From Opeltia flavorubescens (taxonomy: Eukaryota > Ascomycota > Lecanoromycetes > Teloschistales > Teloschistaceae), in NCBI GenBank assembly GCA_000442125.1, contig KE546966.1, positions 272,969-336,968 of the forward strand: a stretch of 64,000 nt of DNA, read 5' to 3'. The notes under the pieces are model-generated. The model had not been told where the DNA came from, did no database searches, and worked only from the letters and a program-made list of their open reading frames with translations. Shown piece after piece: positions 12,003 through 48,399 of this stretch; positions within the stretch are counted from its first letter, which is position 1, and each line of letters begins with the position of its first letter. A program made the translations under genes and the position numbers.

Positions 12003-12387
12003 ATGTCTCAATTAACCGAAGGCAATCCGTATCCTTACGTCAGTATCCCCATTGCCCTCAGAAAATTCCATCAAACATTTATCTAAACCCAACGGCACCA
12101 AAAAGACCGTCAGAACCACGAACTTCGAATTCCAACTCCTGAGACAGAATACCACCTGCGCCAAGCCCCACAACTGCAACCAATTCAGACGTTACAAGGA
12201 CGTCTGCACCGGCCTCAGGGACATCAAACAGATATTACGCCAGCAACGGGTAATCAATATGGATGATCAGAATAGGGTGTGGAGCCAGATATGGAATAAA
12301 GCTGTGGAGAAGACGATTAGCAAGACCGAAGCTCTGAGTCGGGAACTTGACGACCTTGTTGAGGATATTGTAAGGGCATGCTGGTAG
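12003..12387 (+). CDS. Array copy 1, small protein of unrecognised family
   Basis: Exons 12003-12038 and 12106-12387, 105 aa. The intron starts GTCAGT and ends CAAAAAG, longer (67 bp) than in later copies. Exon 2 begins TVRTTNFEFQL and ends with the family module VWSQIWNKAVEKT followed by ISKTEALSRELDDL. The middle has three cysteines in a short stretch (residues about 27-45). Intact. It is the outermost copy on the left and the spacing to copy 2 is the largest in the array, which suggests it is an older member. Function unknown. Confidence 0.75.
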
Positions 12388-12865
12388 ATGCAGAAAGATC
12401 GGGGTAATAGAATGATGATGGGTCGCTCGGTTGCTGCTTATCGGGGTTAGAACGGCGCTTAAAAGCGGATGAATCAACTTTGAGGTGTACGGAAAGATTT
12501 TGGAGGCAATTTTGTACAGGGGGGCTGAGTGTGCAAGAATTGATTTATTTTGATATCCAATGTTGTCCCTTCTACTAGTCGCATGAGGCACTACAGCTGC
12601 CCGATATTCGGAGAAAAATAATCGTCACTGCTATATTATGAGTGTTGTGATGGTTAGGATTGTTAGTCTCAGATGGGTTTGGTATTATCTACAAGCCAGT
12701 TCAACAATCAAAATTTATTTCGAGGGTGTTTCGTCATATTTTGTGTCAATCATTCATCAGCCCTAACAGTATATGGCTTCTCTATCCGCATTATTCCTCG
12801 TCTGTAACGCACCCATATCAGGCAAGCATACTAGTGTCAAATCTGCCAACCTTCCAAGATACAAG

Positions 12866-13291
12866 ATGTCTAATGCAGCATCTGAAGACATGCAAGTAAA
12901 TAACCCCCTCATCCATCCATTCATCCATCCCCAAACCTAACAATCCAACAAAGATCCTCAAATCCACCACCTTCTACTTCCCCTCCATCGTCGAAAACGA
13001 AAATCTCAGCAACGAGAAAAAATACGACATCTACAAAACTTCCTTCACATCTATTTCGAAAATGCTGGGCAATGTCTGCGTCGACAGATGATAAGAGTGG
13101 ATAGCCGAGCAGAGAGACGAGGAGCTCGCCTTGGCGAGACCGCAGCAAAAGGGGCTGAAAAAGACGTCTGGGAAGAGGCGTGGAAAAAAGCTATGGAGGA
13201 GACATTGCGCAAGGTCGATGTTGTGGCTAAAAAGATTAATGATGTAGTTTTCGTAATATTGATGAGACCTCGTGAATGGTGGAAGGATTGA
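12866..13291 (+). pseudogene. Array copy 2, frameshifted
   Basis: Exon 1 12866-12895 (10 codons), intron to 12953, exon 2 from 12954. The N-terminal half reads ILKSTTFYFPS and continues to NVCVDR, then stops at TGA 13089-13091. The C-terminal module (DVWEEAWKKAMEETLRKV) is present downstream but in another frame (open from 13088 to 13291). One frame change between the two halves therefore separates conserved parts of the same gene. Either a recent indel or a sequence error; the rest of the copy is well preserved, so decay is recent if real. Confidence 0.65.
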
Positions 13292-13570
13292 TGGATTGAA
13301 GTTGCTGTGCAGAGTTCGCAACTTTGTTGATGTATAATAATTGAATGTGAATTACAGAATTTGTTTTGTCCACGTCATAGTACCTTGATATCACTTTTCC
13401 TTATCCTTCGCAACTTATTCACCCCCGGATTCTTTCCAACGAGTTTTTATTCTATGGCAAGTGTAATGTCTCATTCTTCCTCATAGCATGCTAATCATAT
13501 GTAAGCTTTGGTCTAGTTGAAATTCACAGCCACGTCCATCAAACAATTCGTCAACATTCGAGCGTCGAAG

Positions 13571-13981
13571 ATGCCTAGCACATGGGGTTTGCCCAAACCT
13601 TTCGGAGAAGTAGGTTCCTTTCAGCCTTAATATCAGCTTCCATGTCGGAGTTTAACATCTCAATAGATCATCAAATCAGAAAACTTCGAAATTACATTCA
13701 CCGAGGAAGCGGTCAATATCATCAATTACCGTTTCAGCGGCAAACATGAGTCACATTCTGTGGCCAGTGACGACCTCCATTTAATCAGAGATTTGTTGCG
13801 CCAACAACTTGTGAGGAAGGGTTCTCAGGGCACCAAAGAAGGGATGTGGGCCCAAACATGGAATGAAGCGGTGGAAAAGACGCTACGTAAAATACAAGCT
13901 TTGATATACGAGCTTGAAGGACTTGAGCACGTTGTTTGGATGAATTGGAATGCCCATTATCATATGGAGGATACAAATTAG
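13571..13981 (+). CDS. Array copy 3, small protein of unrecognised family
   Basis: Exons 13571-13609 and 13667-13981, 117 aa, the longest intact copy. Exon 1 is Pro-rich (MPSTWGLPKPFGE). Exon 2 opens IIKSENFEITF and carries the module MWAQTWNEAVEKTLRKIQAL followed by IYELEGL, which is the clearest match to the family consensus. A short extra tail containing several Trp, His and Asn residues follows the module. Intact. Confidence 0.78.
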
Positions 13982-14254
13982 ACGGATGGGCAAATAAGTG
14001 GACCGAAGCCTGTATCTTAAGTCCATGGTCATATCGACAGAAAACACCCCACTGAAATCTTTATCACACACTCCACTCATTTATTACTATGATATTATAT
14101 GTTTCAACGCTGCTCTTCGACATTATTATTGTTTTACAAGTGCAAGGTTTCGTTTTTTCCTCACCGAACCGCTTAGCCGCCTATCCTCGAAATCTAGTCA
14201 CATCACTCTACTAATCAACCATCCACTATTGCTCCNATCCGCAAAAGATCCATG

Positions 14255-14610
14255 ATGTCTACTATCAAATCCGATCGCGGAGAGAAAATGCATGTAGGTA
14301 ACACCCACTTCTCCACGATAATCTAGATCTCACAGGGATTAAGATCACCAAATCAACCCACTATAACTTCCCGTTCCTCGCCGGGTGCGTCGACAAAAAA
14401 GCTTTCAGCCTCTACAGAGTCATTCATGTCTACAGCGACCTCCAAAACATCACATCAACCCTACATCAACAGATCTTCAAAACAGATCTTTACCGCAAGG
14501 ACAAAGATGTGTGGGGCCACCAGAGTCAAGTCTGGAAAGTGTCGGTGGAGGAGGTTGTTCGCAAAATGGATGGTTTGAGAAAGGAACTCGAGGATTTTAT
14601 GGCTTCCTGA
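14255..14610 (+). CDS. Array copy 4, small protein of unrecognised family
   Basis: Exons 14255-14293 and 14344-14610, 101 aa. Exon 1 reads MSTIKSDRGEKMH; an ATG directly before it (14252) is an alternative start. I place the acceptor at ATTAAG, not at the CACAG eight bases earlier, because only this gives the family start ITKSTHYNFPF in phase 0. The module has two extra residues (VWGHQSQVW instead of W-x3-W) and continues VSVEEVVRKMDGLRKELEDF. An N base lies 19 bases upstream of the start. Intact. Confidence 0.72.
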
Positions 14611-14920
14611 GGGAACGTTGTTGGATTTTGAGGAAGAGGGCATGCATGTGCGGGAGGGAAGGACGAATGGATTAGGTCTTCAAGCTTGAGTTCATGACCA
14701 CCCTTATGCGAAATTATCCATCCCATTTCGAGTTTACACTTATCATACCTCCACGTTGCATCACCTCCGTGTGAACCTATCATTTCGAGGTATTCATTGT
14801 TCCACCAGTACGAATTGCTTACCCTACTGCCTACCAACTCGCCAAGCAGTCCGCTCCCGAAATCTACTTAAAACACACGACCAACCATCCACTGTTATAC
14901 ATCCCCAACCAGCATCCACA

Positions 14921-15300
14921 ATGTCTGCTACAAAATCTAGTGACGGAGAAAATAAGCAAGTGCGTACCACACACGTCTTTCGGTTAGCCTGGACTTAACA
15001 AGCTATCAGATCATCAGAACCACCAATTTCGAATTCCCGTTCATCACTGGAGACATTGAGGTAGACGGGCTTAGCGTCAGCGACATGTGGGTAATCGCAG
15101 ATTTCTACAAGAATCTTCAAGGTATCGAAAAGACCGTGCATCACCAAATTTCGAAAGCGAAGGATCAGCACAAGGAAGGCATCATGTCCAGCCACCAGAG
15201 TGGGGCTTGGATAGAGATTATGTTAATATTAGTTTCGAAGATGGAAGATCTAATGGATGAGCTTGAGCTTTTTGTACATTCATTAAGGTATGATGAATGA
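14921..15300 (+). CDS. Array copy 5, small protein of unrecognised family
   Basis: Exons 14921-14959 and 15010-15300, 109 aa, intron 50 bp with a GTGCGT donor. Exon 2 opens IIRTTNFEFPF. The C-terminal module is diverged: the second Trp is lost (GAWIEIMLILVSK), while MEDLMDELELF keeps the helical periodicity. Of the intact copies it is among the most changed in the module. Open reading frame intact. Confidence 0.72.
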
Positions 15301-15574
15301 AAGACTGGGGAAGTGGCATGAACTAGAGAGAGGAATGGAAGCATCAGGGGACTAGAGTTTTTATCTTGCCTTCACAATCATGTCGCTGTGAAATAAACCG
15401 TTCAGACTTGGCTCAGATTACACTCTTTCTTTCCTCTACATCGCCGAAGCCTTAAAAAGGAATCACACCTCCTTACCCTTCTTCCTACCAAAACACCTGT
15501 CATTCAGTTCGTTCAGATCTGATAAGACCACACTACGGTCCATTTACCGTTCAATCCATTTACGAGCATTCAAG

Positions 15575-15948
15575 ATGTCTGTTACAGTGCTTCGAGATGG
15601 AGAGAAAACAGTCGTCAGTGACCCCAAACCATCCGCTCAACTCCTAAACTAATTCTATCGAAGACATACAAATCCACCAACTTCGAAATCCAATGCAATT
15701 TGGAGGATTTGCACAAGTCTTGGTTCTATGATTGGAACGTACACCGGGACTACATAAAGCTCTATACCCCTCTCATAGAAATCGACTCAATCCTACATCG
15801 GCAGCACCAAAAGTCGTTCTTTTTGGGCGTGGAAGGCACCTCGGTGTGGCAGGAGGCTATGAAGCAGACGACAAGCAAGATTGGAAGCTTGATCAAGGAA
15901 CTCCAGGAGCTTCATGATGCTGCTTTCCGATTGTACTGCCAGCAATAA
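15575..15948 (+). CDS. Array copy 6, small protein of unrecognised family
   Basis: Exons 15575-15613 and 15664-15948, 107 aa, intron 50 bp (GTCAGT..GAAG). Exon 1 is MSVTVLRDGEKTV, close to copies 4 and 5 in its DGEK-type end. Exon 2 opens TYKSTNFEIQC. The module is four residues shorter than usual: only one Trp remains (SVWQEAMKQTTSKIGSLIKE). The reading frame is open throughout, so this is an in-frame deletion. Confidence 0.72.
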
Positions 15949-16189
15949 GGATGGGCGGAAAGTATGAAAACTAGGTGTCTGCTTCAAGCTCATAGCCATA
16001 TCAACATGAAATAATCCATTCAACATTTCAATCTTTCAATGTACACTCGTTACTCCTAGACTCTCAAATGATCTCAAATGAAAACGACCTCTTAGAAACC
16101 ATCTTATTTTTGCACGCGTAAGGTTTTACCCTTCGTCCTACCGGACCGCCTCAATCCTCAACGGCCATATCCATTTACAAGCATCCAAG

Positions 16190-16575
16190 ATGTCTGCGAA
16201 TGTACCTACGGAGCAAGGCTTCGCACGTGTAAGGTAAAGTAAAATAACCAAAATTGCTCGAGGCTAACAATTCTACAGGTCATGAGATCCACCAACTTTG
16301 AATTCAAATTCATGACCGAAGATTCCCTCCGCAATATTTCCAAAAACCACTATACACGCGAGACCTACTGGAAAACTCGCGCAAGGCTCGCCCACATCGA
16401 TATGGAACTCCGCCTACAAGTCATCAAAGGGCTATCAATGCGTACGGAAGCAATGTCTTGGAGCCGGGTGTGGGTTAAAGCTGTGGGGAAGACATTAATT
16501 AAGATAGAGGGATTGATCGATGAGATCAATGATATTTTTGACGCTGATAGGAAGGTGGAAATGTTGATTTTTTAA
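16190..16575 (+). CDS. Array copy 7, small protein of unrecognised family
   Basis: Exons 16190-16228 and 16279-16575, 111 aa, intron 50 bp with acceptor CTACAG. Exon 2 opens VMRSTNFEFKF, and the module reads SWSRVWVKAVGKTLIKIEGL followed by IDEINDIFDAD. Both conserved blocks are close to consensus. Intact. It is the last copy of the first group with the STNFEF-type start before four copies of another type. Confidence 0.77.
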
Positions 16576-16814
16576 GAGCGGGGCCATAGATCAGGGCGAT
16601 TGCTTGAGTCTACAGCTACATCAGTATGGAAAGATCCATGCAAGTCAAATATAATATTTACTCCCTTCACCTCATAGAACCTTAGATGCAATCATCTCTC
16701 CAAGCACGAAATCTCATTCCTCTTTCCCCAAAATCACACATCTACTCCTCCGTGATCTAATTGCACGACTCCATCCCTCCACCACCCTACCAACCCACAA
16801 CCCCGCCAACCTCA

Positions 16815-17218
16815 ATGTCCCTCACAGCGACTCCAGATGAACAGCGTGACCTTGTAGGTAGCTCAAACATATCCATCTAGCTCTGCTCTGATCTAATAAC
16901 TCCACAGATCATACAATCCATCATCTCCTCCTCAGCCCATCTCTCCCGAGCAAAAAAATGCAAAAATTCTGGTGCTACAACCTCCTTTTAAGCTGGCTTT
17001 ACATCAACACCGAACTCAGAGATGTGAAAAAGACGTTGGATGGACAGGTTGGGAAAGCGGATGCTTAGCGCGTGGGAGTAGATGCTCAGGGCATGGAAGG
17101 AATCTTGGTGTGGGTCCAGGTGTGGAAGGAAGCTATGGAGTCTTCGTGGAAGATGCGGTGTTTGATTGATGAGTTGAATGTTTGCGATGATATTCTTATG
17201 GGGAGGGCGAGGATTTGA
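16815..17218 (+). pseudogene. Array copy 8, broken by frameshift and nonsense codon
   Basis: Exon 1 16815-16853 (MSLTATPDEQRDL), intron 54 bp, exon 2 from 16908. The frame starting IIQSIISSS stops at TAA 16989-16991. The rest continues in another frame (WLYINTELRDVKKTLDGQV), meets TAG at 17066-17068 and ends with the module VWVQVWKEAMESSWKMRCL at 17218. The TAG lies in the first of two near-identical stretches (17060 and 17081 onwards); the second stretch has CAG at the same place, so the stop is a C-to-T change in a CpA context. The copy is clearly non-coding now. Confidence 0.75.
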
Positions 17219-17437
17219 GGAGGGGGGATAGAGGGAGTAGGGTTGAGTTGGTGGCTGGATATTGATATGAGGGGATGGATTTCACCACACTTCTTATGCA
17301 GTGCTTGTCCTTCGTCATGGATGTGAATATTGACTAAATTACCTCTTTCTCTTCCCCTATCACCCATCTATCTAATCAAACATAAAACAAACCACACATC
17401 CATCATCCGACTGTTAGATCACCCACTACGATCAAAN

Positions 17438-17814
17438 ATGTACACTACAGCAGCTCCAGGTCCACAAAGAAAATTCGTAGGTAATCTTAATCTATTGAAC
17501 TTCTTCCCGACTCAATGATTCTACAGACTAGCCAACCCTTCACCCTCAAAACCCAGCTCACCTGGGAGAAAAATATGCACAAAATCTGGGGCTCGGCCCT
17601 CTTCAACCAGCGCCAATTCGAATCTATCAAGAGATTGTTTGTGATCAAAACTGCACTGGACCGACAGGTTAGGGAAGCGGGATATAAATGCAAGCAAGAA
17701 GCATCCGAGTGGAAGTAAGTGTGGAAAGAGGCTGTCGAGAAGGCAGCGGGGAAGGTCATGGATATGATCGATAAGCTTGACCATGAATTGAGGTCGAGTG
17801 TACCTAACAGATAA
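17438..17814 (+). pseudogene. Array copy 9, one in-frame stop
   Basis: Exon 1 17438-17476, intron 50 bp, exon 2 17527-17814. Exon 2 belongs to the second sequence type (TSQPFTLKTQLTWEKNMHKI). The frame is open except for TAA at 17716-17718, located inside the module between W-K and VWKEAVEKAAGK, after which the same frame continues to TAA at 17812-17814. Other copies have Gln (CAA/CAG) at this place, so a single CAA-to-TAA change explains the break. The same bases create a GTAAGT donor-like site, but splicing it would remove the conserved module. An N base precedes the start codon. Confidence 0.7.
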
Positions 17815-17986
17815 TCATGTGAAAAAACAATCAATCAACTCATCACACTTTCAATTGAATAATATACTGATTTCCTAAGTACAAAATAATCTTTTTCCTT
17901 TACTATATTGCCGATCTGTCGAGTCATGAATTAATCAAACCAGAAATCTATCAACCAATAGTGAAACTAAACTACCGACATCCAAA

Positions 17987-18387
17987 ATGCCCACCTCAAC
18001 GAATGCAGAGATACAGAAAGAGCACGTAAGTAGTTCAAAATCTATATATTTTCAAAATCTAATCGAACAATTTCATAGACCACCCAATCCCTCACCCCTA
18101 AAGCGCAACCAACCTGGCAAGATTACGTGCACCACGTGCACCAAATCTTGGTTCCCGGCCTCAGTCGAAGTGGAAGCAAATTAAATTACACATATCTCAA
18201 ACTCTTCAGCTTACAAACCTCATTGTACCGACAGATGAGGGAAGCGGACTCTCTTCAGTGCACTCAAAGAATGTCGGTCTGGGTCCAGGTGTGGAAGAAG
18301 GAAATGGAGGACGTTGCGCGGAAGGTTCAGCGTTTGATTTATGAGCTTCATGATTTCGAAGCTCCTGCAGTGGACCGAGGTTCTTAG
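17987..18387 (+). CDS. Array copy 10, small protein, second sequence type
   Basis: Exons 17987-18025 and 18079-18387, 115 aa. Exon 1 is MPTSTNAEIQKEH. Exon 2 opens TTQSLTPKAQPTWQDYVHHV, so it has the alternative N-terminal half shared with copies 9 and 11 and not the STNFEF type. The middle (LYRQMREADS) matches copy 9 (LDRQVREAGY). Module: VWVQVWKKEMEDVARKVQRL, then IYELHDF. It ends VDRGS, as copy 11 does. Intact. Confidence 0.75.
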
Positions 18388-18597
18388 CTCGGCTTTACAT
18401 TAGTTTGAGGTGGCTTGTTTCATTACAGTTCTTGTTCATGCGTCATGGATGTGAATGCCGGCCAGGTAATTTTAGCAGGATTACCGTCTCGTAAGCACGG
18501 ATAGTTCGTTCGTTCTCCTTATTAATATCTCCAGTCACGAGCGAACCAAGCCACACATCCATCAGCCAGTGGTCAAATCATACTACAAGCATCCAAG

Positions 18598-18965
18598 ATG
18601 TCTACTACAGCAGATCCACAGGGTCACCCAGTAGGTAGTCCCAACCTATCTAATTCCAATCTTATCTAATATTTCAACAGATCTCTCAATCTCCCATTTC
18701 CAAAATGCAGCTCGCTTGGGAAGATAAAATACGCAAACTCTTCGGCTCTGGCCTCGATCAGAGCCCGTTGGAGACTTATATGCAGCTCCTTACTATCGAA
18801 GCTGTAGTGGACGGACAGTCCAGGAAAGCCAATACTCAGGGCGTGGAAGGGGATGTGTGGAGCCGGGTATGGAAGGATGCTGTAGAAGAGACTTCGCGAA
18901 AAATTCAGCGTTTGATCATTCAGCTTGATTTGTTCGATGCTGCTGGAGTGGACCGAGGTTCTTAG
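18598..18965 (+). CDS. Array copy 11, small protein, second sequence type
   Basis: Exons 18598-18630 (11 codons) and 18681-18965, 105 aa, intron 50 bp with GTAGGT donor. Exon 2 opens ISQSPISKMQLAWEDKIRKL and continues with VVDGQSRKANTQGVEGDVW before the module SRVWKDAVEETSRKIQRL. The ending VDRGS and the following about 70 bases closely match copy 10, so copies 10 and 11 probably arose by the most recent duplication visible here. Intact. Confidence 0.77.
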
Positions 18966-19190
18966 CTCGGCTTCACATTAATGGGAGGTGATTTGTTTCA
19001 TGACCATTCTTGTTCACTACTGGTTATGCGTCATAAACTTGATTGCCGACTAGTTTCTTTGAATAAGATTACCATCTCACCAGAATAACAAATCTGTCCG
19101 CTTGAACTTTGTTTTTCTAACGGCCAGTCGCAAGCTGATCACATCAAGCATCTACCAACCAACTACCACATCACTCCGCTAAAATCTAAG

Positions 19191-19576
19191 ATGTCCACCC
19201 CAGCACCTCCAGATCCACAGAGTGAACGCGTAAGCTCCACACCCCATCGTCCAGCTGATCCGAAAAAATCTAACCATTTCAAAAGATCGTCAAATCCGCG
19301 CACTTCGAATATCGATTCGCCGAGGTCCTTACCGCGGAGCAAAATAGGATCGAATACGAACGCTCCACGGACATCATCGACCATCTCTGTGTTCTCAGGC
19401 GAGTTCTATGCCGCAGGTCCAAAGAACCGGTTCCTCCAAACACCACGGAAGGCGGCGAATGGAGCGAGGTTTGGAAGGAAACGATGTTGGAGATACTGCA
19501 CAAAATTGAAACGTTGATGGTGGAGCATTATGGTCTTAGCCGTGCTATTGGGGAGGCTTATATACGCCGATTTTGA
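19191..19576 (+). CDS. Array copy 12, small protein of unrecognised family
   Basis: Exons 19191-19229 and 19286-19576, 109 aa. Exon 1 (MSTPAPPDPQSER) resembles those of copies 9 and 11, but exon 2 opens IVKSAHFEYRF, the first sequence type. This mix suggests exchange between copies. Two cysteines and several arginines lie in the middle. Module: EWSEVWKETMLEILHKIETL, then MVEHYGL. Intact. Confidence 0.73.
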
Positions 19577-19850
19577 TGAGGAGCGCGATGGAATTATGGG
19601 GAGGGCTGTGATTTAACTAAGGAAGATGGAGTTGGTAGCTCGAGTCAATTGATTGGTACAGAGATGTGAAGGGATGGATTTTCATCACTTTTCGTATTCA
19701 TTACTTGTTATTCAATATTGACATTTCCTGCTGGTAGGAATATCATCCCATAATCGTAAACAATGTAACGGATCACCTATCTATCTAGCGACAACCGACC
19801 TACCTGAACATCTATCAGTCAATAGTCAGAACAACCTACGAATACCTAAG

Positions 19851-20228
19851 ATGCCTACCTACAGTTCGCAGAAGAAGCATGTAAGTTTCACTACATTTTC
19901 CTATTCAACCCAACTCTAACAATTCGGAAAGATCATCAAATCCACCCACTTTACATATCAATTCCACGAGATAGACATGAATGGCCACAATAACATCGAA
20001 AACGACCGGTATGACAGAACCTACGCCTATCTCGCAGACCTGAAAAACCGCCTCAATCATAGGTCTGATAGCCAGATTGGTCTAGAGGTCACAAAACCCG
20101 CGTCTCAGTCAGTGGAAGACAGAAAATGGAGTCTAGTATGGAACGACGCCGTAAATATGACACTTCGCAAGGTAGAGGGTTTGATTGAAGAGCACGACAA
20201 CCTTTATCGTGAGATCCGTGACTGGTGA
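19851..20228 (+). CDS. Array copy 13, small protein of unrecognised family
   Basis: Exons 19851-19880 (MPTYSSQKKH) and 19932-20228, 108 aa, intron 51 bp with GTAAGT donor. Exon 2 opens IIKSTHFTYQF and the module reads KWSLVWNDAVNMTLRKVEGL, then IEEHDNL. Intact. It is the last copy; the following 300 bases carry no further unit, and the next gene (MFS transporter) is on the other strand. Confidence 0.75.
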
Positions 20229-32345: not shown

Positions 32346-34292
32346 ATGGAAGTCGAGCTGTATGTCTACGATCTCTCTCGAGTACATTCTCCCTCCGTGT
32401 CGACCTCAACCTCGCACTATGATTGCTAATGGTTTTATGTCTAGGGTCTTGCGCGACAAGTAGGAATCCTCAATCCTTTTGAACACCACTCGCTTACCAC
32501 CAACAGATGTCGCAATCCTTCCTCGGTGTTCAAATCGATGCGGTATACCACACAGCCTTAGTATTTGGCGGAATAGAATATTTCTTTGGAGCTGGAATAC
32601 AGCAAACTTATCCTGGGGCTACGCACCATGGCCGGCCGATGAGTGTTATTCCAATGGGAAAGACTGATTTGCCCCTGGAAATCATCCTTGAGTACCTCGA
32701 CTCATTAAGAAGTGTCTATACAGCCGAAGTAGGTTACGGAACGATCTGGCGCCAAGAGCAAAATTAATCCGATTCAGTCATATGATCTTTTCTTACACAA
32801 TTGCAATAATTTTACCAATGATTTTGCCATGTTCCTTCTAGGAAAAGGGATACCCGACCATATAACCTCGTTGCCCCAAACGGTCCTAAACACCCCCTTT
32901 GGCCAGATGCTAAGGCCCCAAATTGACAGTGCAATGCGAGGTATGACGCAGGCCCCTGTTGCGCCATCCGCAATTCCCCCTCAATCAAGACCGAACACCA
33001 CAGCGGGCACCGCGCCTAACATGCCACCAGCAACCGCTAGCAGTTCAAATGGTAGCATGAATACCAATGGCAACGGCATTAACTTTCCAACAGGAAAAGT
33101 TCACTATGCAACAACTCTGAAGAAATTAGACTCTCTTCTTACGTCTGCAAAAGACTCATGTGCAGTGATCTTCTTCACCTCAGCAACTTGTCCTCCGTGC
33201 AAAATTGTCTATCCAGCATATGACGAGCTGGCAGCCGAGGCGGGTGATAAAGCAGTCTTAATCAAGGTTGATCTCAGTGAAGCGTACGAGATTGGGTCGC
33301 GGTATCAAGTTCGTGCTACACCCACCTTCATGAGCTTCCTGAAAGGGGTCAAGGAGAACGAGTGGGTTGGGGCCAGTGAGGGTCAGCTCCGGGGAAACGT
33401 AAGGATGCTAATACAGATGGCTCATCCTCCCCACCCACACACCAATCTCAGGTTGCGAACCCTCCAGCGCCGACATAAAACAGTCACATACGCAAAGATC
33501 CCTCCTCTTGACAAGTTGATTGCAAAGCTGGGCTCACGAAGCAACGAATCTGCGATTGTTGCTTTGAAAGACTTTATCCGTGCTCGTGAGGTTTCAGGCG
33601 CTTCTGACGCTCCATTACCTTCACTTCCTACCATCGATGCTTTCATTGTCCAGTGCATTGGCACTGATCCACCCGAGTCACTATTTCCTCTCGTCGATTT
33701 GTTTCGATGTGCGCTGGTGGATCCTCGGGTAAGCGGCTACCTTGCGGCTGAACGCTCTCGCTCTACGATTGTCACGATTCTCTCGAAACCTTCGGCGCTT
33801 GGCACAACTTGTCCCTATAGCCTGCGTATTGTCACGCTTCAACTAGCCTGCAATCTCTTCACATCTTCGATTCTCGCCACTCAGCTGCTTCGAGAAACAG
33901 ATCTCTGCACGCCTCTGCTACAGCTTATTACATCCTCTCTCTTAGACACCGCACATGCGCCAGTACGAGTAGCCGCAGCATCACTGGCTTTCAACATGGC
34001 GGCCATCAATCATCTGCAACGTCTTGACGAGAAGGAAGATCTGATAGCAGAGTCTTTTCAGGTTGAATTAATGGCTAGTCTTTTGGAGACAATCTCGAAC
34101 GAAAACGAGAATAAGGACAGTGTAAGAGGCTTGCTCACTGCCATTGGCCTTTTGGCATATGGTGGCCCGAGGGGCGGCGAAGTCCAGGAACTTTGCAACG
34201 CGTTAGGCGCTAAGGAGACAGTATGTTCTAAGGAGTCATTCAACGATGATTTGAAGGATCTGGTGAAAGAGGTGGAGCAAGTGCTAGCATAA
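32346..34292 (+). CDS. PPPDE (DeSI-type) peptidase - thioredoxin - PUL domain fusion
   Basis: Four exons: 32346-32381, 32445-32459 (a 15-base exon, GLARQ), 32507-32728 and 32778-34292, 595 aa. The N-terminal PPPDE domain (residues 1 to about 145) begins MEVELYVYDLSR and has the cysteine-protease dyad His32 (VYHTALVFGG) and Cys100 (LHNCNNFTNDF), as in DeSI deubiquitinase/desumoylase-like enzymes. A Ser/Pro/Asn linker leads to a thioredoxin domain (about 195-310) with active site CPPC (229-232) and the cis-Pro segment RATPTFMSF. The C-terminal 270 residues are helical repeats resembling the PUL domain, which in Ufd3/PLAA binds Cdc48/p97. This three-part architecture is known in fungi. Likely role: ubiquitin/SUMO-linked protein quality control with redox input; substrates unknown. 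Confidence 0.88.
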
Positions 34293-46271: not shown

Positions 46272-47225
46272 TCAAGCCTTGATTTTCTCCAACTGTTCAT
46301 TCACGTCCAACATATCCCACTTCCAAGGATCCAATCCCTTTGGATCTCCGTTGGCACACATGGTCTTATACCAATCTTTCCGTTCCTTGTCCCCCCTCGA
46401 TTTCTTGAATTCCTTCTTTAAGTCCTCCCACCCGGGCTCACTCCCACAGTCTTCCGCGCAAGGATGCCCCTCCCCCGCAATGCAAAGTATTTGCTGAGCT
46501 TTTTCCGGTGGGTAAGCCGTAAGAGCAGTGTGCAGACCTTTATCCGCACGACCAAGAACGTTGATTTGGTGTTCCCAGCCATCACCCATATCATACTCAT
46601 AGAGGAGATGCAAGTCTGCGATACCAGATATGGTCTGCCCATCCCATTCTTTCTTCTCGAGAACGTCACCAAGAGTCCACTTGTTTTCATCTTGTGTCCG
46701 AAGATCTTCGACCATTTCCTCCATGATGCTCATACGAGATTGAAGTGTCAATATCCTCTTGGGTCGAGAACTCTTCTGGCCGTCACCATTTTTGTGACCT
46801 TGTTTGCTGCAGGGTATGGTTACGTCGACGGTGAATTGATGCATGTGGCAATTTGCCCAGCCGAAAGCAGTTTGGAGAACCTCGTGAAATTTACCGAACG
46901 TCAGAGAAGGAGGGAGAGAGAGCAGACGGGTGATCGTTGGGTCAAAGGTGAGGACATTGCTGACAAGGATAAGGTAGTTGCGTTCAGAGTCGTCTGATTC
47001 AGTAGTTGGCGTAGGTTTCGTAGAGGACTGTGTCTTTTTGGTTGTAGTGCTATCATTAACTGGCGCAGCAGTTGACTTTTGGTCTTTTGGTGTACGCTTC
47101 GAGCCCTCTAGCGCGTCGTCCGAGGTTTTCGATCGGATTTTCTTGGTCGCATTGGGGCTTGTTGCTCCCAAGGGATTGGTGCGTGAGCTCCCTTTGCTCG
47201 TGGTGGTCTTAGCAGCTTTTGGCAT
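46272..47225 (-). CDS. Plasmid pRiA4b ORF-3-like (IS1096 TnpR-like) protein
   Basis: Single exon, 317 aa. The first 80 residues are a Ser/Thr/Lys-rich disordered leader. Then comes the pRiA4b ORF-3-like domain: LILVSNVLTFDPTITRLLSL, FGKFHEVLQTAFGWANCHMHQF, LGDVLEKKEW, LLYEYDMGDGWEHQINVLG, and the family's Cys/Gly block LCIAGEGHPCAEDCGSEPGW. The domain is named after bacterial mobile-element proteins, but stand-alone copies are common in fungi; its biochemical role is unknown. Nothing around this gene looks like an insertion sequence (no inverted repeats seen), so I treat it as a fungal gene. Confidence 0.85.
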   Translation of the reverse strand: MPKAAKTTTSKGSSRTNPLGATSPNATKKIRSKTSDDALEGSKRTPKDQKSTAAPVNDSTTTKKTQSSTKPTPTTESDDSERNYLILVSNVLTFDPTITRLLSLPPSLTFGKFHEVLQTAFGWANCHMHQFTVDVTIPCSKQGHKNGDGQKSSRPKRILTLQSRMSIMEEMVEDLRTQDENKWTLGDVLEKKEWDGQTISGIADLHLLYEYDMGDGWEHQINVLGRADKGLHTALTAYPPEKAQQILCIAGEGHPCAEDCGSEPGWEDLKKEFKKSRGDKERKDWYKTMCANGDPKGLDPWKWDMLDVNEQLEKIKA

Positions 47226-48399
47226 TTCGACGGAAGGATATGCCTGGACAACTCAAGCTAGCAGTCCCGAATATCCTACAAACGAAAGCAACGTACACAG
47301 AGAACAAGACTGGGTCTAGCAAAAGGGGTAAATATTGACCAGTTCTGTCTTGACGCGTTCGTCCTATGACGTCAATCCTAAGCGCGTCGTCATTGCCTCC
47401 ATATGAGGATCGGCATTCGTAAATTCACAACGACAAATGTAAGAGCACGCATAAAAAGTCATGGGATATCCTACTTACTTATGGACATCCGGACCCAGAG
47501 ACCATATGAGGTTATGAAGACGACTCAGTAGTTGAAATGCTAATTATCCCGTCTCTTTCAAGTTACACACGAACCTCCAAATTTTCTAAGCCAGCTTTGG
47601 GGCATAACGGTAGAGTATTCTCCGCTACTTGTCCTGGCATGCCATTGAGAATCATCTCCAACAATATCCCAATAGACTTTCTGCATTTTATTTTGGTGCC
47701 ATTGGAAGCTCTGGTTAAAAGACACGGGTACTTTTTGTTTCACCATTTGCCGATCTCCCAAAAGTATCTACTTCTATCATTGTAGTCCCAACTGTCTTTG
47801 CTACATACCGTTTCAGCCATCTCTTCTTTCCTACGACTCTATTTGGACGTCTTGATTCTGATTTTAGGCCGCCAGCTATATCCATCTCAAATTGATTGTT
47901 GTCATGTTTCTCCATGAAAATTGTTCGTCTCTAGCTCTAGCTTTTTCGAGCATGCAATGGAACATGCACGCTTTAACTTCAAGGCGATTTCAACGACTCT
48001 ATTCTAGTGTAGTCCTATAGTGGTGCAACAAGTGACCTGTTGCATTGTTTTGCAATGTTTAGTGCATTCTCTGTGACCGAGCTGTACTAAATCCGGTGGT
48101 TCAATATTGCTTCGAAACATGGACCAGCGAAAAGTTGACATCAAATGACGTGACACCTCCAGAAATATCTCCCGGAGCTTGAGGTGTAATGACGCGAAGG
48201 TATAGCAGTATCAAGATGTCCGAGGCTATAAAGTCGCCGTCAATCCAGTAGACACTCAATATTAAACAAAATACGATCGAACCCAAAGTCATTCAGTCAT
48301 CCATCAAAAGTTCAGACCACATCGAGTTGCATACTTCATCCAGTATCCAAACAAGCCACATCAACAAGCGTCCAATTCTCTTCAGGAAAATCTCTCAAG
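47226..48399. other. Intergenic, no supported gene
   Basis: About 1.2 kb between divergent genes. Frames at 47537-47785 and 47715-47915 lack recognisable features. The last 200 bases lead into the secreted-protein gene. Confidence 0.4.

Follow-up and report, generated by a model that had tools for sequence, protein, structure and literature searches.

A tandem array of small two-exon genes in Opeltia flavorubescens as the largest local expansion of a probable multi-copy gene family

The window analysed here is a stretch of 64,000 nucleotides of the genome of the ascomycete Opeltia flavorubescens (G000:C2:272969-336968; the assembly comprises 34.4 Mb in 23 contigs, by which the loci are labelled C1, C2, C11, C14, and C15). 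At positions 12003-20228, the window contains an array of 13 head-to-tail units on the plus strand, namely 10 intact two-exon genes encoding small proteins and three broken copies (U02, U08, and U09). With a probability that we put above 0.9, the array belongs to a multi-copy fungal gene family that is absent from the libraries searched, and it appears to be the largest local expansion of this family found here. An earlier note, made from the letters of the window, had described the array; the tandem array is real, and the description is incomplete, given that 17 further open reading frames (ORFs) of the family lie at four other loci.

A family dispersed over five loci

In a search of the organism's own genome with exon 2 of unit U01, the match outside the array was C1:2632903-2633169 (E 8.8e-5). 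From this C1 copy, a chain of matches leads to contigs C15 and C11; a C15 copy in turn matches C14 (E 0.011), and a C11 copy matches C15 (E 5.4e-4). All matches listed fall in five loci; this search scores the best candidates only, and the resulting counts are lower bounds. An iterated profile applied to approximately 263 kb around the five loci retrieved 29 of the 3613 ORFs at a threshold of E<1e-3 (the seed members are bound to match), with 12 members on C2, two on C1, 11 on C15, three on C11, and one on C14. At the same threshold, the profile matched neither the reversed ORFs (0 of 3613) nor the shuffled ones (0 of 18065), and the flanks of the five loci served as its sole natural control.

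A profile built without C2 sequence recovers nine of the 10 intact array units, seven with E-values from 1e-10 to 5e-4 and two with 0.0018 and 0.0049, and U11 is absent from its matches at E<=1; this profile is not wholly independent because a profile started from C2 had been used to collect its members. The comparison of the array profile with the profile of the dispersed members using hhalign yields a probability of 98% (E 2.8e-13), and plain BLASTP also links C1 to C2 (7e-7), C1 to C15 (8e-7), and C11 to C15 (5e-7). The lone C14 copy (C14:922401-922892, minus strand) shares 79% identity with C15:414658 across 43 residues and is perhaps a recently moved piece.

Gene structure of the array and the shared intron

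The gene models confirm the arrangement described in the earlier note, that is, 13 units on the same strand with a short first exon, a phase-0 intron, and a second exon. The 10 intact genes have a first exon of 10-13 codons, an intron of 50-67 nt, and a second exon of 89-105 codons (stop included), and the start codons of neighbouring units are spaced by about 549-863 nt. The intact genes are U01 (12003-12387; exons 12003-12038 and 12106-12387), U03 (13571-13981; exons 13571-13609 and 13667-13981), U04 (14255-14610; exons 14255-14293 and 14344-14610, exon 1 being of 13 codons or, with an ATG three bases upstream at 14252, of 14), U05 (14921-15300; exons 14921-14959 and 15010-15300), U06 (15575-15948; exons 15575-15613 and 15664-15948), U07 (16190-16575; exons 16190-16228 and 16279-16575), U10 (17987-18387; exons 17987-18025 and 18079-18387), U11 (18598-18965; exons 18598-18630 and 18681-18965), U12 (19191-19576; exons 19191-19229 and 19286-19576), and U13 (19851-20228; exons 19851-19880 and 19932-20228).

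Exon 1 and the GT donor are recognisable in all three broken units, and exon 2 is interrupted in each: by stops and a frame change in U02 (12866-13291; exon 1 12866-12895) and U08 (16815-17217; exon 1 16815-16853), and by one in-frame stop at the W-x3-W motif in U09 (17438-17814; exon 1 17438-17476, exon 2 from 17527). Single N bases occur at window positions 14236, 17437, 20388, 50142, 53881, and 60680, among which 17437 lies immediately 5' of the U09 start codon.

All 10 intact array units carry a phase-0 intron and a short exon 1 ahead of the F-x-F-x-F strand. The same structure was sought among the dispersed members by requiring a short ATG exon and, behind it, a phase-0 intron whose end falls 0-8 codons ahead of profile position 1 (or, at most, one codon past it). 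It was found in eight of the 13 testable dispersed members, compared with 27 of the 405 ORFs of the same DNA that served as controls. The remaining four of the 17 dispersed ORFs were left out because the match starts too far in; one of these, C15:427650, has a spliced product (P0009, see below).

Conservation and constraint

Measured against the exon-2 product of U01, those of the remaining nine intact units are 21-30% identical. Exon 2 encodes the motif [ST]-x-N-F-x-F-x-F, an amphipathic helix (Y-x3-Y-x2-L-x2-L-x3-L-x2-Q/R), and another helix (W-x3-W-x3-M-x2-L-x2-K-I-x2-L-x2-E-L). In the alignment of the 10 intact products, four positions do not vary (the second W, one K, and two L), and the E of the E-L end is present in at least nine; by our reading of the alignment, the first W occurs in eight, U05 and U06 being the exceptions. 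Across the profile family, W65 is kept in 27 of 29 members, K75 in 24, and E82 in 24.

Substitution patterns, expressed as the proportions of nonsynonymous (pN) and synonymous (pS) differences (Nei-Gojobori means over 45 array pairs), differ along the exon. For the whole exon, pN is 0.51 and pS 0.68; the respective values are 0.38 and 0.53 for the N-terminal strand part, 0.60 and 0.69 for the middle segment, and 0.42 and 0.72 for the C-terminal block. Both conserved blocks are under constraint. The conserved C-terminal module of the earlier note holds as a constrained region, whereas its exact W-x3-W spacing is limited to seven of the 10 intact units, with U04 carrying a three-residue insert. 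Exon 2 is open in 10 of the 13 units, against 1.0 to 0.3 expected under random (neutral) substitution at 0.3-0.7 changes per site, which bears out the view that selection keeps the frame. The pairwise ratios of nonsynonymous to synonymous rates (dN/dS), which the earlier note had proposed as a check, were computed and carry no information, since the synonymous sites have almost reached saturation (for 11 of the 45 pairs, dS is undefined).

Judged by hydropathy only, none of the 10 intact products contains a signal-peptide-like segment (highest 11-residue mean within the first 35 residues, 0.95) or a membrane segment (highest 19-residue Kyte-Doolittle mean, 1.11), in agreement with the initial description. 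The number of cysteines in these products ranges from 0 to 4.

Spliced products and possible joint transcription

A search of approximately 5.8 billion proteins, in which matches need shared five-residue words, listed 11 relatives (P0001-P0011), and comparison with the genome traces all 11 to its own loci. The matches listed include no relatives from other genomes, which is weak evidence given the need for five-residue words and the uncertain coverage of fungal proteomes. The exact spliced products of six of the 10 intact array units are present, namely those of U03 (P0001), U04 (P0002), U05 (P0003), U12 (P0004), U10 (P0005), and U11 (P0006), along with those of the C15 members 415974, 427650, and 412611 (P0008-P0010, respectively). 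The products of U01, U06, and U13 were not found in this set, and U07 is represented only by P0007, its exon 2 read unspliced from an internal ATG.

The source tag of these proteins, lgn, presumably denotes assemblies of public sequencing runs. The gene caller behind the set seems to leave introns in, as indicated by P0007 and by P0008, which extends upstream in frame through the would-be 5' untranslated region (UTR); the spliced proteins are therefore best explained by contigs of complementary DNA. Because nine members, six of them in the array, appear as exactly spliced products, they are very probably transcribed, and from these sequence matches it is very probable that many copies of the family are transcribed and spliced. 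The absence of expression, which the earlier note had named as evidence against its proposal, is accordingly not what the public proteins indicate. In addition, P0011 matches C15:426967-427386 (L020:1967-2386) in its first part and then has a different end; this ORF lacks an intron at the usual place, and the deviating end points to a second splice or an alternative one.

Identical lengths of the longest contig are recorded for U03, U04, and U05 (1801 nt; window 13571-15300; spliced span 1573 nt) and again for U10, U11, and U12 (2089 nt; window 17987-19576; spliced span 1431 nt). A hypothetical spliced span from U10 to U13 would measure 2032 nt, although the U13 product is missing from the protein set. 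These sizes suggest transcript contigs with three units each, resulting either from joint transcription or from the joining of overlapping UTRs by the assembler.

Predicted fold and comparison with known families

AlphaFold models were obtained for exon 2 of U07 (predicted local distance difference test, pLDDT, 93.7; predicted template modelling score, pTM, 0.81) and for full-length U03 (pLDDT 82.6; pTM 0.71). The predicted fold consists of short N-terminal strands beside a long antiparallel two-helix hairpin. A Foldseek comparison of the U07 model with the PDB gave 227 matches at E<=10 and none at E<=0.001, and VIA-align returned generic hairpins for both models.

The claim that no known domain is present also stands, for no convincing match emerged from any of the sequence libraries. 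Only weak single-member matches were found in Pfam (10 exon-2, 10 spliced, and 13 dispersed proteins; best E 0.011) and, for the 10 spliced proteins, in NCBIfam (best E 0.0038), PADLOC (best E 0.0077), and PHROGs (best E 0.02), and the PDB searched by sequence gave scattered matches, mostly to helical proteins (best E 0.023). Literature searches over titles and abstract openings did not find a family of this kind described.

Among known systems, the hairpin of the ESCRT-III protein Snf7/CHMP4B is one of the nearest candidates for comparison; the Pfam profile of Snf7 matches none of the proteins searched against Pfam. Another is the dimerisation domain of ING4. ING proteins carry a PHD finger, which products as small as those of the present family lack, and Pfam gives no sequence match between the two.

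Evolutionary history and genomic surroundings

In a tree covering 26 of the 29 members, copies from one locus tend to stand together, with six changes of locus against 12.0 with shuffled labels, and most copies therefore seem to have arisen in place. The tree neither supports nor rejects a single clade of the ten C2 units (approximately unbiased test, p-AU 0.43), and 12 of the 23 inner branches are left open. Turnover of copies is evident from the young pair U10/U11, the youngest in the array, and from the three broken units. The signature of repeat-induced point mutation (RIP) was not found, the RIP-type indices of the array being equal to those of its flanks.

Six of ten neighbouring ORFs in the window contain metabolic, transport, or protease domains according to Pfam, and the other four contain nothing recognisable; none of the ten belongs to a recognisable conflict system. 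With dN/dS uninformative as well, the recognition or conflict role put forward in the earlier note is not shown. As a side observation, one open frame at window 32733-34289 joins the end of a PPPDE (C97) peptidase, a thioredoxin, and a PUL domain. The window also encodes an Mgm1-like protein, whose matches in the PDB are consistent with a filamentous ascomycete.

Neighbours shared between loci were sought by all-against-all BLASTP of ORFs of at least 60 amino acids in the 263 kb around the loci. Apart from the family itself, this yielded a few pairs: Fung_rhodopsin genes stand near both the C15 and the C11 clusters, PRiA4_ORF3-like genes occur on C11 and in the window (L030:5549-6769 and window 46272-47249, both minus strand; 47% identity across 250 alignment columns), and one further pair, unidentified, joins C15 and C2. 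These genes stand about 4-35 kb from family members and are tentatively taken to be representatives of widespread gene families. Protein-kinase ORFs lie approximately 1 kb from the C15 cluster (L018:3535-4308) and 5 kb from the C11 cluster (L028:8753-9379); a kinase motif scan found none near the C1, C2, and C14 loci, and the same scan missed the C11 kinase, so that it is not exhaustive.

Possible roles of the family

The products may act inside the cell as hairpin adaptors, binding one another or a shared partner by means of the conserved helix face. This face, together with the strand motif and the K/E positions, would most simply be a packing or partner surface, and the variable middle segment would give each paralogue a different surface. 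Copies would be born by tandem duplication and die by loss of frame, as expected of a fast-evolving repertoire for interaction or recognition. We hold the adaptor or oligomer role only tentatively, and a recognition role within it is doubtful. Several observations weigh against this picture, in part or as a whole. The hairpin is a common shape and assigns no function; relaxed constraint accounts for the divergence of the middle segment no less well than positive selection does; the shared intron is lacking, by the test used, in five of the 13 testable dispersed members (C11:218785 and C15:421366, 422608, 425967, and 426967); and several C15 members sit on very long branches, so not all 29 members need share one role.

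Nearly as likely as the adaptor model is that the family is lineage-specific and serves a structural or developmental role; the hairpin core alone would then matter, and the middle segment would diverge freely. The pN of the middle segment, close to its pS and higher than in both conserved blocks, fits such a role, and the three broken copies suggest that single copies are dispensable; nevertheless, ten frames have stayed open at near-saturating divergence, indels in the middle segment keep the frame, and many diverged copies are retained at several loci. The products might also resemble effectors, being exported by an unconventional route to act on a different organism. Arrays of small secreted effectors are a familiar class in fungi, and the present proteins resemble them in being small, tandem, fast-changing paralogues; however, they differ in having few cysteines and, by hydropathy, no signal peptide, which makes this explanation improbable. 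Still less probable is that the copies are what is left of a mobile or selfish element, multiplied by copying and not maintained through selection on the protein: the presence at five loci, including the likely moved piece on C14, would fit such an origin, whereas the open frames, the shared intron, the constrained core, the RIP-type indices, and the clustering of copies by locus all argue against it.

An extension of the adaptor model, which we regard as improbable, is an operon-like repertoire in which neighbouring units are co-transcribed and spliced and the hairpin paralogues form strain-variable hetero-oligomers, amounting to an undescribed intracellular recognition system of fungi. A long-read study reports polycistronic units, enriched for tandem duplicates, in the Agaricomycete Plicaturopsis crispa and none in the ascomycete Neurospora crassa (PMC4503453). 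The array resembles the Agaricomycete units in consisting of tandem duplicates, with three units twice sharing one longest contig size; it differs in that joint transcription is here suggested by the sizes of the longest contigs.

Implications

Fast-evolving tandem paralogues are a known kind of gene in fungi; what looks new is the combination of several loci, the lack of a signal peptide, the shared phase-0 intron, and possible joint transcription. The family is easy to miss because first exons of 10-13 codons and identities of 20-30% defeat routine annotation and single-sequence searches. Its 29 ORFs at five loci, together with the shared intron, the spliced products, and the confidently predicted fold, now open it to experiment, and joint transcription of neighbouring units, if true, would also make it a case in which to study polycistronic messages in ascomycetes.

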